A stretch of DNA of 64,000 bases from Candidatus Saccharimonadota bacterium (GTDB taxonomy: Bacteria; Patescibacteriota; Saccharimonadia; Saccharimonadales; Saccharimonadaceae): the NCBI GenBank assembly GCA_017510445.1, contig JAFWNF010000003.1, forward strand, positions 62,001 through 126,000, given 5' to 3'. The notes beneath the pieces were generated by a model. It ran no database searches. It was not told the DNA's origin and was given only the letters and a program-made list of their open reading frames with translations. Positions 5,462-60,130 of the stretch are shown in pieces (position 1 is the stretch's first letter; each line of letters opens with the position of its first letter). Position numbers and translations under genes: made by a program.

Positions 5462-8400
5462 ATGGGAATCGAACTAAATGAAGAACAAAAGCAAGCTGTA
5501 GAATATCTTGAAGGGCCGCTTTTGGTACTAGCTGGTCCAGGCACCGGCAAAACCCAGCTTTTATCAAAAAAAGTCGCTTATATCCTAGAAAATACTGATA
5601 CCAATCCTGAAAACATTCTCTGTATTACCTTTACTGAATCTGGCGCCTCAAATATGCGCGAACGCTTAAATTCCATCATCGGTAAAGCTTCGGCCAAGAT
5701 TAACATTAATACCTACCACGCCTTTGGTCGCGAAATCCTAGCTTCTTATAATAATTACTCCGACAAACCAGGCCGTCGTTTCGACGAGCCAATCGACGAT
5801 GTCACAAAATTCAAAATTATCAAAAATCTTCAAGGCGCGCTCGCACCTTCCGACATTTTAAGAGGTGATAACCCTGCCGATATCGCCGACACCATCAATT
5901 CCGCCAAATCCGCCGGCCTCACCGCCAAAGATCTTGAAATTATCGCCGAAAAAAATCTCGAAGATAGCGAAGTTTTAAGCAGTGTAATCTCTAATTTCCT
6001 GGAGAATCTCACACCGCGCACGCTTCATCCAAACCTCGAAGAAGTATATGAGCCAATCTACGAAGTTCTAAAAAGTCACAAAAAGGACGACTTTATCTTA
6101 AAAAACGTTTCAAGAAACATCGAAGATATCGCTAAAGACCTCGAAAAAGCTTTAGATGCAGCAAAAACGGTCAACAAAATAAGTCCATTAACTGCCTGGA
6201 AAGATTCCTATTTTGAAAAAGACGGCAAAGGACGATATCGCCTAAAAGACCGCGTTGCCAACAAAAAACTTTTATCTCTCGCCCACATCATGGCTGATTA
6301 TCAAGATTATCTCGAGAAAAACTCTCTCATCGATTTCGCTGACATGATTGAAGAAGCAATCAACGCTCTCAAAAATGACGATGGTTTTCGTCTCACTCTC
6401 TCAGAAAAATACCAGTTTATCCTCCTTGACGAGTTTCAGGACACAAACCCCCAAGAATTTGAAATTATTAAACTCCTAACAGATTACGAGAACCCGGTCG
6501 TGATGGCCGTAGGCGACGACGATCAGGCGATTTTCGAATTTCAAGGTGCCAGTGCCTCGAGCCTCAAGAATTTCAAAAATCACTACAATGCCAAAGTTAT
6601 CAATCTTATTCATAACTACCGTTCGACTCAAGAAATCCTCGATTTTTCTCGCAAAATCATCGATGAAGTAGATGATAGCTTCGTCAAAACCGAACCAGAA
6701 CTAAATCTCAATAAATCTCTAATTTCTCACCTCGATAAATCTGAAAAGTTTGGCATTTCTCGTCATGAATTTATCTCTAGCGATGCAGAATATTATTGGA
6801 TTGCAGACGAAATCTCAAAGCTAATCAAATCTGGCGTTCCGCAAAAAGAAATTGCCATCATCGCGCCAAAACACAAATATATCACCCCAATTCTGCCATA
6901 TCTAAAAGAACACCCGGAAATCAATATCGCCTACGAAAAACGCGAAAATCTTTTTGAAAACGAATATATCCACCAAATACTCACCATTGCACGTTTTCTT
7001 GCAAATACAGCCGCCGAAAAAAACACAGCAAGCTTACTTCTTGAAGTCTTAAGTTTTGACTTCTGGGAAATCGACCCGTACACAGCAATTAAAGCCGTCG
7101 AAAACGCCAAAAAAGATCATAAATCCGGCTTAGATTATCTAATGGAATCCGAGGATGAAAAACTCAAAAACATCGGCGCCTTCCTCTCTAGCCTAGCCCT
7201 AAAATCACTTAATCTACCCCTTGAATTTGTCCTCGATTGTTTGATCGGCACTGCAAAAATCAAAGACACCGAATTCCGTTCCAACTTCCTCGATTTCTAT
7301 ACCAAAAATGAATCCGAAGCCGTAGCCTTTGAAATTTACGAAGCACTCCATGTTTTGAAAGAAAAACTAAAATCTCATCTTAAAGTTGAATCACCAAAGC
7401 TTACCGACTTGATCGAATTTATCGATGATTATGAGCTCGCGAAAGCTCCTCTCACGAACACTAGCCCTTATAAAGACGCCGAAGATTCCGTCCAGGTTCT
7501 CTCTGCCCACAAAGCCAAAGGTCTCGAGTTTTCACACGTCTTTCTCATTGCTGCCGACGATATGGCCTGGGGTAAAGGCAAAGGGAATAACAACATGCTT
7601 TCTCTTCCTAAAAACCTCACCTTTATTCGCCACACCGGCGCTACTGACAGTGAGCGCATCCGCCTCCTTTTCGTTGCCACCACTCGTGCCAAAACAAATC
7701 TCATAATCACAAACTCTACCAAAGATTTCTCTGGTAAAAGTCCGAAGCGTCTCGAATATCTATCTGAATTCATAGATGAAAACGGCAAAATTATTTCCCC
7801 ATATCTTCCGCACGACAGCCAAACCGTTATCAGCCACCAAGACGATATCTCTGGTCATCAAATTCGTACTAATCTTCACACCAGCTGGACCTCAAAATAC
7901 CTCCATCTCACGCCAAACCTTTATGAAATCATTAAAAAACGTACCGACAGCCTCCGTCTTTCCGCTACCCATCTTAGCACTTTTGTCGATATCGTTTACG
8001 CCGGTCCACTCAGCTTTTATCAGACCTATCTCTTAAAAGCTCCAGGCGAACCAACTACGGTTAGTCTAGAGTATGGTAGCTTGATTCACGAGATCTTTGA
8101 AAAAATCACCAAAGAGGGGATTACGGACAGCGAAGCAATTGAACTATACACCGCCGAAGCCAAAAAAACCGCACTTCCACCTGAAGATATCGAGGAACTA
8201 TTAGAACGCGGCAAGCACGCTCTCGAGATATCACTTAAAGCTTTCGGAAGAATCATCCGCGCTGGCAAAGCAGAGGTCGATTTCTATCCAGAGCATCTTG
8301 CTTATAACGATATCCCTATTACCGGCAAAATCGACCACATCACAATCGATAAAGAGAAAAAAACTATTGAAGTCTACGATTTCAAAACCGGCGTCTATCA

Positions 8401-8783: not shown

Positions 8784-8870
8784 TTTTTCGTCAGCATTTT
8801 GCTTGCACGTTAGAAAGGAGCGTGAGGAGCGACTAGTCTAGTCAAAATTCTCATGAAAGGTGGTGATAGA

Positions 8871-9059
8871 ATGACATGGACTTGCCATAAATGTGGAAAG
8901 ATTTTCACAAATGAGCTCGACTACCAGAGACATAATTGCAACTACTGGGAAAGAGACACCAGAAAATGCCCCCACTGCAACGGCACTGGCGTAATCACCG
9001 GCGGTATATTCGAACCCAATCGCACTTGCCCTTACTGCCACGGTTCTGGCAGAGGTTAA
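8871..9059 (+). CDS. Small double zinc-binding protein
   Basis: A 62-residue protein of unknown role. The N-terminal half has CHKCGKIF followed by H and C spaced like a C2H2/C2HC zinc finger. The C-terminal half has CPHCNGTG and CPYCHGSG, the CxxCxGxG repeat of the DnaJ zinc-binding region. The start is ATG at 8871 with AGGTGGTGA upstream; the ATG at 8853 lies before the Shine-Dalgarno. It is a single-gene cassette with its own promoter and terminator. It might bind nucleic acid or act as a chaperone accessory; neither can be shown. Confidence 0.7.
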   Translation: MTWTCHKCGKIFTNELDYQRHNCNYWERDTRKCPHCNGTGVITGGIFEPNRTCPYCHGSGRG

Positions 9060-9139: not shown

Positions 9140-9168
9140 TTGACTTTTTTAATCATTTATGCTATAAT
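9140..9168 (+). promoter_or_regulatory. Promoter of ncRNA candidate
   Basis: TTGACT (9140-9145), 17-bp spacer, TATAAT (9163-9168) with TG-C extension. It is very similar to the promoter at 58194-58222. Confidence 0.8.
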
Positions 9169-9174
9169 TAAAAG

Positions 9175-9287
9175 GATTTGGGTGGGAAAGCTTCTCGGAG
9201 CGCTCGGATGGCTATCCATTAGCTTTAAATACTTGTCCGGATCATTAAACCCCAGCTTGAGCTAGCTGAGGATATTTTTATTTTTTA
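9175..9287 (+). ncRNA. Candidate ~110-nt small RNA
   Basis: A strong promoter is followed by ~110 bp with no ORF of useful length and then a terminator hairpin (CCCAGCT/AGCTGAGG, 9250-9271, then T-rich). The RNA can form AAAGCT/AGCTTT around a core. The core includes an 18-nt stretch at 9202-9219 (GCTCGGATGGCTATCCAT) that recurs in the leader at 58271-58288. It points towards the minus-strand thioredoxin-like gene, overlapping its last codons. No Rfam family was recognised; it does not fit SRP, 6S, tmRNA or RNase P by eye. Confidence 0.6.
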
Positions 9288-10300
9288 TACATCCCAAAGT
9301 GCTTTTTCCCGTCATAAATCAACGTCGGAATCCCCTTTACGTGCACTTCGTTTTCAACAACATTCTTTACTTTTTCAAGAATTTCATCAATTTCTTCCGA
9401 ATGAGCCAGTTTTTTTACTTTTTCGTATTCTTCACCATTTAATCCAAATTCCTTTAGCCAATCTTTCAAAAGTCTTTCCGCCTCCTCATTATTCAACTTA
9501 TTATTGAAGACTGACTGATAGTTTATTCCATTTTCATTATATCCATTAAAAACGCGCTCAAGAATCTTTGTCGAAATATCGGAATTTACGAGCGCGCTTG
9601 CATAAAAGTATCTCGCTATAATTCCAGAATTCTTAAATTTATATCCACTCTCGGTCTCAATCGGATAAACCAAAAGAATAGTCTTGTAGTCATCAAAGAA
9701 TCCCGATTCTAATTGATTACGATAAGAATTCATACAAGCTGAACAACCAGGGTCAACGATATCAAGCGCAACAGGTTTTTCATCCTGAAGATTCTTCGCA
9801 AAAACTTTTGGCTCAACGACATATTCTTCTGCATTCCAATTTTTAATTCTATCTGGGATCGCACCAAAAATTTCGCCCCAGCCTTCGAACCAATTCAATT
9901 CTTTTTCTTCCGTCGAGCAAGCATCAGCTCCTAATGCGCAAGAAGACGGGCTTGTTACATTGCATGTTCCTAGCGCCCAAAGCGAAAGTCCCGCTTTCAC
10001 CGCTTCAACAAGCGACCAAATTGTTACCACCACAATCAAAACCGAAAAAATCTCAATCAGAGCCGATAACGGTTTTACAAGTTTCGGTTTTTTTATTACG
10101 ACCTTTTTCAAAATGCTGTTTTTTACATCTTCTTTAAAATTTGTTTCGCATTTTTGTAAACGTACTTTTTTCCAGACGCAGCCCCAAGCTTTCTTAAAAG
10201 TTTTCCAATATTTTCGCCCAACGTCACGCTTAAAAATACTTAAAACTGCCACAAATAAACTAATTAGACAGAGAATTATAAACGCAGCCACACAAACCAT
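9278..10300 (-). CDS. Membrane-anchored thioredoxin/DsbA-like protein
   Basis: A 340-residue protein with an N-terminal membrane segment (about 1-23), a basic stretch, a second hydrophobic segment (about 83-105) and an extracytoplasmic domain. The domain has a CSAC active-site motif (VDPGCSACMNSY near 193) and a VKGIPT cis-proline loop near 324, as in DsbA/thioredoxin-fold oxidoreductases. It probably makes or reshuffles disulfide bonds in surface proteins. Its start codon overlaps the stop of the desulfurase gene (TAATG), so the two are translationally coupled. No VKOR or DsbB partner is in the window. Confidence 0.75.
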   Translation of the reverse strand: MVCVAAFIILCLISLFVAVLSIFKRDVGRKYWKTFKKAWGCVWKKVRLQKCETNFKEDVKNSILKKVVIKKPKLVKPLSALIEIFSVLIVVVTIWSLVEAVKAGLSLWALGTCNVTSPSSCALGADACSTEEKELNWFEGWGEIFGAIPDRIKNWNAEEYVVEPKVFAKNLQDEKPVALDIVDPGCSACMNSYRNQLESGFFDDYKTILLVYPIETESGYKFKNSGIIARYFYASALVNSDISTKILERVFNGYNENGINYQSVFNNKLNNEEAERLLKDWLKEFGLNGEEYEKVKKLAHSEEIDEILEKVKNVVENEVHVKGIPTLIYDGKKHFGMYKK

Positions 10301-58193: not shown

Positions 58194-58222
58194 TTGACTT
58201 TTCATTCCGTTTGTGCTATAAT
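58194..58222 (+). promoter_or_regulatory. Promoter of the lipoprotein gene
   Basis: TTGACT (58194-58199), 17-bp spacer, TGC-TATAAT (58217-58222). Confidence 0.8.
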
Positions 58223-58228
58223 TAAACA

Positions 58229-58345
58229 GATTGAGGGGGGCAATTGTTCATTAAAAGTTGTTATAGGGGTGCTTGGATGGCTACCCATAGTGATTTTTTG
58301 ATGAGCTTTCGCTAGCCAAAATCAAATAAGAAACGAAACACGGAA
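58229..58345 (+). promoter_or_regulatory. Structured lipoprotein leader with shared motif
   Basis: The ~140-nt leader holds GCTTGGATGGCTACCCAT (58271-58288), 16/18 identical to the ncRNA candidate at 9202-9219. A GGG/CCC pair (58266-58268/58284-58286) closes the motif loop; the same positions are GGA/TCC in the other copy. A TGATTTT/AAAATCA hairpin follows (about 58290-58325). It could be a cis-regulatory RNA. Confidence 0.5.
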
Positions 58346-58367: not shown

Positions 58368-59465
58368 ATGAAGAAGCTCGTTTCACTCGCACTCGCAATA
58401 CTCACGCTCATCGCCGTTGTCGCCTTCACCGGCTGCGGCAAAACACCGGCAAATGACACCACTACGACAGCAACAGATAACGGCAACACCACTAAAGTTA
58501 TCGACACAGAGAAAACCATTTCGCCTGCGCAAGTCTCTGAAGAGTACCTCAACGGTACCTGGGACGGAGAAACCCGCCATGAAGGTAAATTTTTTTACTA
58601 CCTGGATGGCAATGGATATCTCATCCAGGAAAAAGACGACTATACAGAAAAAGAATTCTGCGGTCGCCCAGATGCTCCAGAATTCTTTAAAGTCGGATTC
58701 GCCATCAAGGTTGTCCGAGGTGGAATCGTAGCAGTGAATACTGACTTCACCGATATCGTTTATGCCTTGAAGGGCAAAATAATCCGCAGATTGGCAGACG
58801 TACAGAGCTGGGATGCTCTTGACGGCAAGCTTAAGTTATTCACCATAGGCGACATTGTAGTCATCAGAGAGGGTGAAACCGCCCTAATCATGAACTATAT
58901 GACTGGTGAAAAACAAAAGATGACGGGCGTCAGCAGCGTGGAGTATTCCACCGATGATACCGGCATCGCAATCGCAACTTTCGCCGGCAAAAACCAAATA
59001 GTTCTCCACGATGGAACAATAACGGAGTTGAAAACCAAATACATCCAACTCCCCGATGATGTGGACTTCAACTGTCATGATCTTCCCGACGACCTCGAGG
59101 TCTACCCAAAAGGTAGAACCACCGAATGTGATGCGGAAGCGCAGATGTATTTCTACGCATACGCTAACAAGGACAACCGAAGCTACACAATTGTCCTTAG
59201 AAAAAATGGTGCTTATGTCGGGATGATCGCCCGCAACGTCATCGCAGTTGAAGAAGGTCAGAATCGAATTTATTATCTGACCGACTCGGGTGAAGTATAT
59301 GTGTACGACTGCGTCGAAGGTGAAGCTCAGATGTTTGTCGGTATTCCGGTCTACGGACTGGTCACCATCGAAGACAAAGTTTACGCCATCTCCGACGCGA
59401 ATCACACCGACACTCCGCCTATGCATGGCTACACAAACCTGTATAAAGGCGATATAGTCGGATAA
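58368..59465 (+). CDS. Predicted lipoprotein
   Basis: A 365-residue exported protein. MKKLVSLALAILTLIAVVAF is a signal peptide and TGC-GK at residues 21-23 forms a lipobox (F-T-G-C), so it is probably anchored by lipidated Cys 23. A Thr-rich linker follows (TTTTATDNGN). The remainder is beta-rich with repeated short motifs (GKIIRR, GDIVVIREG, GEVYVYD) like a small propeller or PQQ-type repeat domain. No enzyme signature. RBS AAAAGGAG. It is a single-gene cassette with structured leader. Role unknown; possibly surface sensing or binding. Confidence 0.7.
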   Translation: MKKLVSLALAILTLIAVVAFTGCGKTPANDTTTTATDNGNTTKVIDTEKTISPAQVSEEYLNGTWDGETRHEGKFFYYLDGNGYLIQEKDDYTEKEFCGRPDAPEFFKVGFAIKVVRGGIVAVNTDFTDIVYALKGKIIRRLADVQSWDALDGKLKLFTIGDIVVIREGETALIMNYMTGEKQKMTGVSSVEYSTDDTGIAIATFAGKNQIVLHDGTITELKTKYIQLPDDVDFNCHDLPDDLEVYPKGRTTECDAEAQMYFYAYANKDNRSYTIVLRKNGAYVGMIARNVIAVEEGQNRIYYLTDSGEVYVYDCVEGEAQMFVGIPVYGLVTIEDKVYAISDANHTDTPPMHGYTNLYKGDIVG

Positions 59466-59659: not shown

Positions 59660-60130
59660 ATGGATGTCATAAATTCGCAAGAACTTTTTCTTTTAAGCCA
59701 GATTAAGGAGCAAAATGAAAAGCTCCTCAAACAAAACGAGGAACTTTTGAAAATTAATCGGCAGTTTTTGCCAATCTCCGAACTTCCATTTTCACAGGAA
59801 GAGAAGGAGTATTTATTCTCGCGTGGCGCAAAGGTTCTTGGAGATCTGCTTGCCCCAAATTTCTTCAACGCCGCCGAAGCAAAACAGTGGCAATCCATCA
59901 TCAAACGACTTCGTGAATGGGGATATTCTCCAATAATCTCCGGCGATATGAAGATTGAAGAGATGGACTTCGAAGTCCGAACAAAAAATGCTCTCATTAG
60001 GAGCAAAGTTATTTATCTCTTAGATCTCGTGTCTATGAAGGAACAAGAAGTCAAGAAAATCCACAATCTTGGTGCCAAATCCTTCGCGGAAATCCACACA
60101 AAATTGCAACTTTTAGGCTACGATTGGTAG
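59660..60130 (+). CDS. Free-standing RNA polymerase alpha-CTD-like protein
   Basis: A 156-residue protein. Residues ~8-35 form a coiled coil (KEQNEKLLKQNEELLKINRQ). Residues ~103-156 align with the C-terminal domain of RpoA: FEVRTKNAL matches TVRSANCL (E. coli R265 and N268) and IHNLGAKSFAEIHTKL matches PNLGKKSLTEIKDVL (G296, K298, S299, E302). These are known UP-element DNA contacts. Residues ~38-98 (ISELPFSQEE...GAKVLGDLL...LREWGYSP) look like a degenerate second copy. No alpha N-terminal domain is present. It may bind promoter DNA as a dimer or act as a regulator; the role is inferred. Confidence 0.72.
   Translation: MDVINSQELFLLSQIKEQNEKLLKQNEELLKINRQFLPISELPFSQEEKEYLFSRGAKVLGDLLAPNFFNAAEAKQWQSIIKRLREWGYSPIISGDMKIEEMDFEVRTKNALIRSKVIYLLDLVSMKEQEVKKIHNLGAKSFAEIHTKLQLLGYDW

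Follow-up and report, generated by a model that had tools for sequence, protein, structure and literature searches.

A probable orphaned 5' leader and a small constant-loop hairpin associated with a lipoprotein gene in Saccharibacteria

Described leader hairpins and relic leaders

The closest described counterparts of the element considered here are the hairpins in mRNA leaders that control translation or stabilize the 5' end. The likeness lies in the position within the first ~20–90 nt, the variable stem, the purine-rich loop and the association with genes for secreted proteins; the difference is that the loop consensus found here, YGGAUGGC, occurs in no Rfam family. A second comparison is with orphaned or relic 5' leaders and small RNAs (sRNAs) derived from 5'UTRs, with which the first of the two loci described below (copy 1) shares a promoter and leader, here with a terminator-like hairpin, that lack the ORF served by the leader in a relative. 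Copy 1 is a predicted transcript, and one relative was compared. Hairpins that bind CsrA/RsmA are also similar in having GGA in a hairpin loop, but CsrA was found in neither of the genomes that carry the element.

Regulation in Saccharibacteria, post-transcriptional regulation included, is nearly unexplored, as stressed in a 2024 review, in which the way differentiation works is said to be unknown and regulation of translation is expected to be key (PMC11665869). A literature search turned up no report on leaders of this kind in Saccharibacteria. The leader hairpin would be a small, previously undescribed cis element in this group, found in a genome of the rumen type.

The two copies of the motif and their hairpin

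The window (the whole 64-kb stretch of DNA that was analyzed) contains two copies of an 18-nt motif (Table 1). The copies are identical at 16 of 18 positions, against ~62% (21/34 columns) for the rest of the aligned leader. The recurrence had been pointed out in the original prediction and is confirmed with its positions, and the two copies make up the only such pair in the genome: a third copy within three mismatches is absent from the window (0.03 expected in shuffles), and a search of the whole genome to which the window belongs found no others. Since 2.5% of random 18-mers from the window have a partner with two or fewer mismatches, a single pair of this kind is unremarkable in 64 kb. It is noteworthy because a strong promoter precedes both copies, at the same kind of location. 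The motif pair is real, but narrow and mostly ordinary.

Table 1. Features of the two loci in the window and of the related leaders in G098, the nearest relative compared. The 5'-terminal hairpin and the micro-ORFs were read from the sequence.
Feature	Position	Strand	Description
Copy 1 promoter	9140..9168	+	-35 TTGACT, 17-nt spacer, extended -10 TGCTATAAT; 11/12 sigma-70 match
Putative orphan leader	9175..9277	+	Predicted start about 9175, runs to terminator; lipoprotein ORF absent inside
Copy 1 leader hairpin	9197..9217	+	GGA/TCC stem (9197-9199 pairs with 9215-9217), loop holding CGGATGGC
Motif copy 1	9202-9219	+	GCTCGGATGGCTATCCAT
Possible micro-ORF, copy 1	9208..9222	+	ATG GCT ATC CAT TAG (MAIH), GGAG 7 nt upstream
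Terminator-like hairpin	9253..9268	+	CAGCT/AGCTG stem, then AGGATATTTTT
Convergent thioredoxin-like gene	9278..10300	-	340 aa; neighbor common to window and G098 (75% identity)
Copy 2 promoter	58194..58222	+	TTGACT, 17 nt, TATAAT with extended TG; 11/12 sigma-70 match
Copy 2 5'-terminal hairpin	58230..58244	+	ATTG[AGGGGGG]CAAT
Copy 2 leader hairpin	58267..58286	+	GGGT/ACCC stem, loop GCTTGGATGGCT
Motif copy 2	58271-58288	+	GCTTGGATGGCTACCCAT
Possible micro-ORF, copy 2	58277..58315	+	MATHSDFLMSFR
Lipoprotein gene behind motif copy 2	58368..59465	+	365 aa, lipobox AFTGC; homologue in G098
G098 lipoprotein leader	L086 about 4100-3935	-	Before homologue of lipoprotein 58368
G098 SleB leader	L086 about 8060-8110		Before SleB-like cell-wall hydrolase gene

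The consensus promoter that had been proposed for copy 1 is indeed present. The likeness between the two promoters also stands, but as evidence it is weak, since the consensus occurs genus-wide: blastn searches with each element found it in 147 of 147 genomes of the genus, nearly always as matches that end where the promoter ends. Promoter similarity was consequently dropped as a link between the copies. In many promoters of the genus (loci L103, L107, L117 and others), GGTGGG or GGGTGGG follows within 10–15 nt, inside what is presumed to be the start of the transcript, and this signature accounts for part of the likeness between copies 1 and 2. The 5'-terminal hairpin of copy 2 has a counterpart, ATTG[GGTGGG]CAAT, in the lipoprotein leader of G098 and is altered in copy 1.

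The motif most likely forms the top of a small hairpin in the RNA leader of a lipoprotein gene. Both RNA folds share a hairpin tip of the form GGR-nn-GCU-YGGAU-GGC-UA-YCC, and the closing stems, predicted to differ by a compensatory change at one pair, do so by an A-U to G-C replacement. The loop reads YGGAUGGC in each of four leaders from two genomes, whereas the stems vary (GGA/UCC, GGGU/ACCC, AAGGGU/GCCCUU and GGGGGCC/GGUCCUC) in a compensatory manner, which supports the earlier proposal of a conserved loop. In a MAFFT alignment of the four leaders, 12 of 12 cells are paired, compared to 25–67% in slid controls, and one stem pair varies between A-U, G-C and C-G. With a sample as small as four leaders, the covariation score was reached by 30 of 500 shuffles. 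Folding of copy 2 RNA is more stable than that of its own shuffles (z -2.7), that of copy 1 no better (z -0.5 to -0.7). No Rfam family matches the window above the gathering score, and at permissive thresholds the element itself has only chance-level matches. When the loop stays fixed while the stem changes freely, this usually points to a loop that is recognized in trans, or to a site connected with the ribosome.

The counterpart locus in a relative

Among 174 genomes of the genus, convincing homologues of the leader were found in one other genome, that of Candidatus Saccharibacteria bacterium isolate Tb.RUG.198 (contig JAEEKR010000040.1; here G098), which has two. The comparison of leaders thus covers two genomes, both of them incomplete or fragmented assemblies. 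For a model of the RNA that covers the -10 box and the leader, copies 1 and 2 and the leader of the G098 lipoprotein served as training sequences; they score 69, 96 and 81 bits, values that are high by construction. The next match in the 174 genomes reaches 29 bits and lacks the motif, and the matches inspected have a -10 box, often with a G-rich start, and no motif. The G098 SleB leader is not strongly picked up by the model; it is counted as a member because it shares CTTGGATGGCT, which in this leader lies inside a 10-bp hairpin. The gene behind it is SleB-like at scores below cut-off (TIGR02869, E 1.4e-9; PF07486, E 3e-5, just below).

Outside the window's own genome, exact matches to the motif in 60 relatives do not have the promoter-leader layout, and promoter-plus-motif patterns in 174 genus genomes, 393 order genomes and IMG/VR gave chance-level results or nothing beyond the known loci. 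The original prediction was to be given up if the motif were missing from all relatives or lacked further covariation, and this was found in part: almost all relatives lack the motif.

The lipoprotein is similarly restricted. It is present once each in the window genome and G098 (27% identity, E 1e-36) and absent from the rest of the 174 genomes, save for one marginal local match; a search of genome contigs returned only that of G098. Both lipoprotein genes carry the motif in front of them, as the original prediction had suggested looking for. Another gene, at 59660-60130, lies between the lipoprotein gene of the window and rplC; its 156-aa product contains the C-terminal domain of the RNA polymerase alpha subunit in stand-alone form (PF03118, E 9e-16). 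Among nine genus genomes searched, the protein is found at full length only in the window genome, and the others match the domain part only.

In G098, the thioredoxin (Trx)-like orthologue is convergent with a unit that, going outward from this gene, presents its terminator (CCCCAGC-GAAA-GCTGGGG), then the lipoprotein ORF and lastly the leader, which contains GGGTACTACGGATGGCGCCC. The Trx-like neighbor in the window faces a terminator (CCCCAGC-TTGAGCTA-GCTGAGG) with a 5' arm identical to that at the same place in G098, and then directly the leader, without an ORF between them. The Trx-like gene resembles thioredoxin weakly (PF13462, E 0.003, which is below cut-off) and occurs in 156 of the 174 genomes, with the G098 orthologue closest by far; the leader is absent beside it at all 28 other Trx loci inspected. 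Since neighbor and orientation are the same and the leader is missing from these 28 loci, the copy 1 leader and the G098 lipoprotein leader are orthologous by position, and what differs is the ORF. The genes upstream of the leader differ between the two genomes. In the window, a gene in a short unit of its own lies upstream of copy 1, at 8853-9059; its 68-aa product is a zinc-ribbon protein rich in Cys that weakly resembles the DnaJ CXXCXGXG domain and anti-TRAP.

By this comparison, the copy 1 locus is not supported as the clean RNA gene it had been taken for, since its equivalent in G098 consists of a leader, lipoprotein ORF and terminator. Copy 1 was not found conserved without an ORF in any relative: the G098 leader precedes the lipoprotein ORF, and no other relative has the leader. 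The 110 nt described as ORF-free do lack a lipoprotein-type ORF, but a mechanical ORF of 41 aa (9140-9265) overlaps the stretch, which also contains the micro-ORF. Likewise, the expected terminator exists as a hairpin, but it is a poor one, with a 5-bp stem and a gap before the T run, and it may belong to the convergent gene.

Copy 1 (9140-9277) is therefore best read as the orphaned 5' leader of a lipoprotein unit, with promoter, leader hairpin and terminator-like hairpin in place and the coding sequence missing, a reading that the sequence comparison supports with a probability of about 0.68. An ancestor shared with G098 would have had the leader, lipoprotein ORF and terminator, convergent with the Trx-like gene. 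A duplication in the lineage of the window probably placed a second unit behind rpoC, made up of copy 2 and the lipoprotein gene at 58368, and the original unit beside the Trx-like gene would then have lost its ORF. Duplication within this lineage is suggested because copies 1 and 2 (37/52 aligned columns identical) are closer to each other than to the G098 leader (27/51 and 40/66 for the two copies). Judged from the one relative that carries the locus, the change may have been loss of the ORF here or its gain there. Between hairpin and terminator, the tail of copy 1 scores at shuffle level against the lipoprotein units; TAAACCCCAGC in the tail resembles TAAACCCTAGC beside the stop codon, a match reached by 7 of 500 shuffles and suggestive at most. 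Against this reading stand the shuffle-level scores of the tail, the differing upstream genes and the intact promoter of copy 1, which is not required of a decaying relic.

In the intact genes, the hairpin lies within the first 20–90 nt of the predicted mRNA for a secreted protein, where it would be a cis-acting 5' element, most likely acting through its constant loop to tune the translation or stability of secreted envelope proteins. A cis-acting translation or stability hairpin, which a protein, ligand or RNA may recognize, is thus favored, and copy 1 would be its orphan. For the prediction of sRNAs from sequence, copy 1 illustrates that a convincing-looking gene, with promoter, terminator and no ORF, can be an empty gene shell.

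Other readings of copy 1 and of the loop

Copy 1 could instead be a dedicated trans-acting sRNA, such as a decoy, which shares its loop with copy 2 because the same protein or RNA binds both. The intact promoter and terminator-like hairpin fit such a gene, as does the stronger conservation of the motif relative to the rest of the leader, although constraint on copy 2 alone explains this identity well enough. However, the counterpart in G098 is a lipoprotein gene leader, a stand-alone copy is found in no relative, and the fold of copy 1 is no better than that of shuffled sequences, all of which makes this unlikely.

It is also rather unlikely that a micro-ORF begins in the motif, encoding a leader peptide of 4–16 codons that controls the downstream gene. 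The layout would be a Shine-Dalgarno-like run, 5–9 nt and then GG-ATG-GC, and the candidate peptides are MAIH, MATHSDFLMSFR, MAPLSTLSCFGAGKTP and MAGPHEI. All four leaders have the loop ATG and an upstream purine-rich run, and in that of the G098 SleB gene a TTG that could open the SleB frame overlaps the TGA that ends the micro-ORF. However, the peptides have only Met-Ala in common and differ fourfold in length, the constant bases reach past the ATG (YGGATGGC), and the loop TTGGGAGG, found in two related leaders of the same genome as the window, has no ATG. Coding in the GGA-TGG (Gly-Trp) frame was rejected, as the SleB leader of G098 offers this frame no start codon and in the lipoprotein leaders it runs into stops before the genes.

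As an extension of the orphaned leader, loss of the ORF might have turned copy 1 into a free-standing decoy RNA, the loop of which would compete for the binder of the lipoprotein and cell-wall gene leaders, but this is considered improbable.

Least probable is that the loop is a GGA-type site for CsrA or that the element belongs to a known kind of riboswitch: CsrA sites typically consist of GGA in a hairpin loop, as seen here, but PF02599 is absent from both the window genome and G098 (0/2) while control genomes are positive, which rules out CsrA as the binder at the sensitivity of the search, and no Rfam family matches.

The favored cis-acting hairpin may have more distant kin. A related loop, UUGGGAGG, is present in two further leaders of this genome, those of the orthologue of the G098 SleB-like gene on contig C5 (46% identity) and of the secreted gene preceding it. 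Both genes have 5' hairpins with an identical loop, TTGGGAGG, on compensating stems (GATTTCTAGA/TCTAGAAATC and TAATTTCTA/TAGAAATTA). As an orthologous gene has TTGGGAGG in one genome and TTGGATGG in the other, the leader hairpins of envelope proteins may form a single loose family. This is suggestive only, since some GG-N-GG hairpin is present in about 4% of leaders (6/135). G-rich loops in 5' hairpins as a theme of the whole genus were unsupported, the six observed in 135 leaders comparing with an expectation of 2.0 from shuffles and 4.2 from arm swaps.

The C5 genes (L173, G000:C5:141000-144200) are in tandem, at about 759-1546 and 1627-2435, both secreted and with 5' hairpins of 9–11 bp, the second being SleB-like. 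Their natural signal-peptide start, after a Shine-Dalgarno-like run, falls on ATA or ATT and not on ATG, GTG or TTG, and the SleB gene of G098 has ATT or CTG at the corresponding start.
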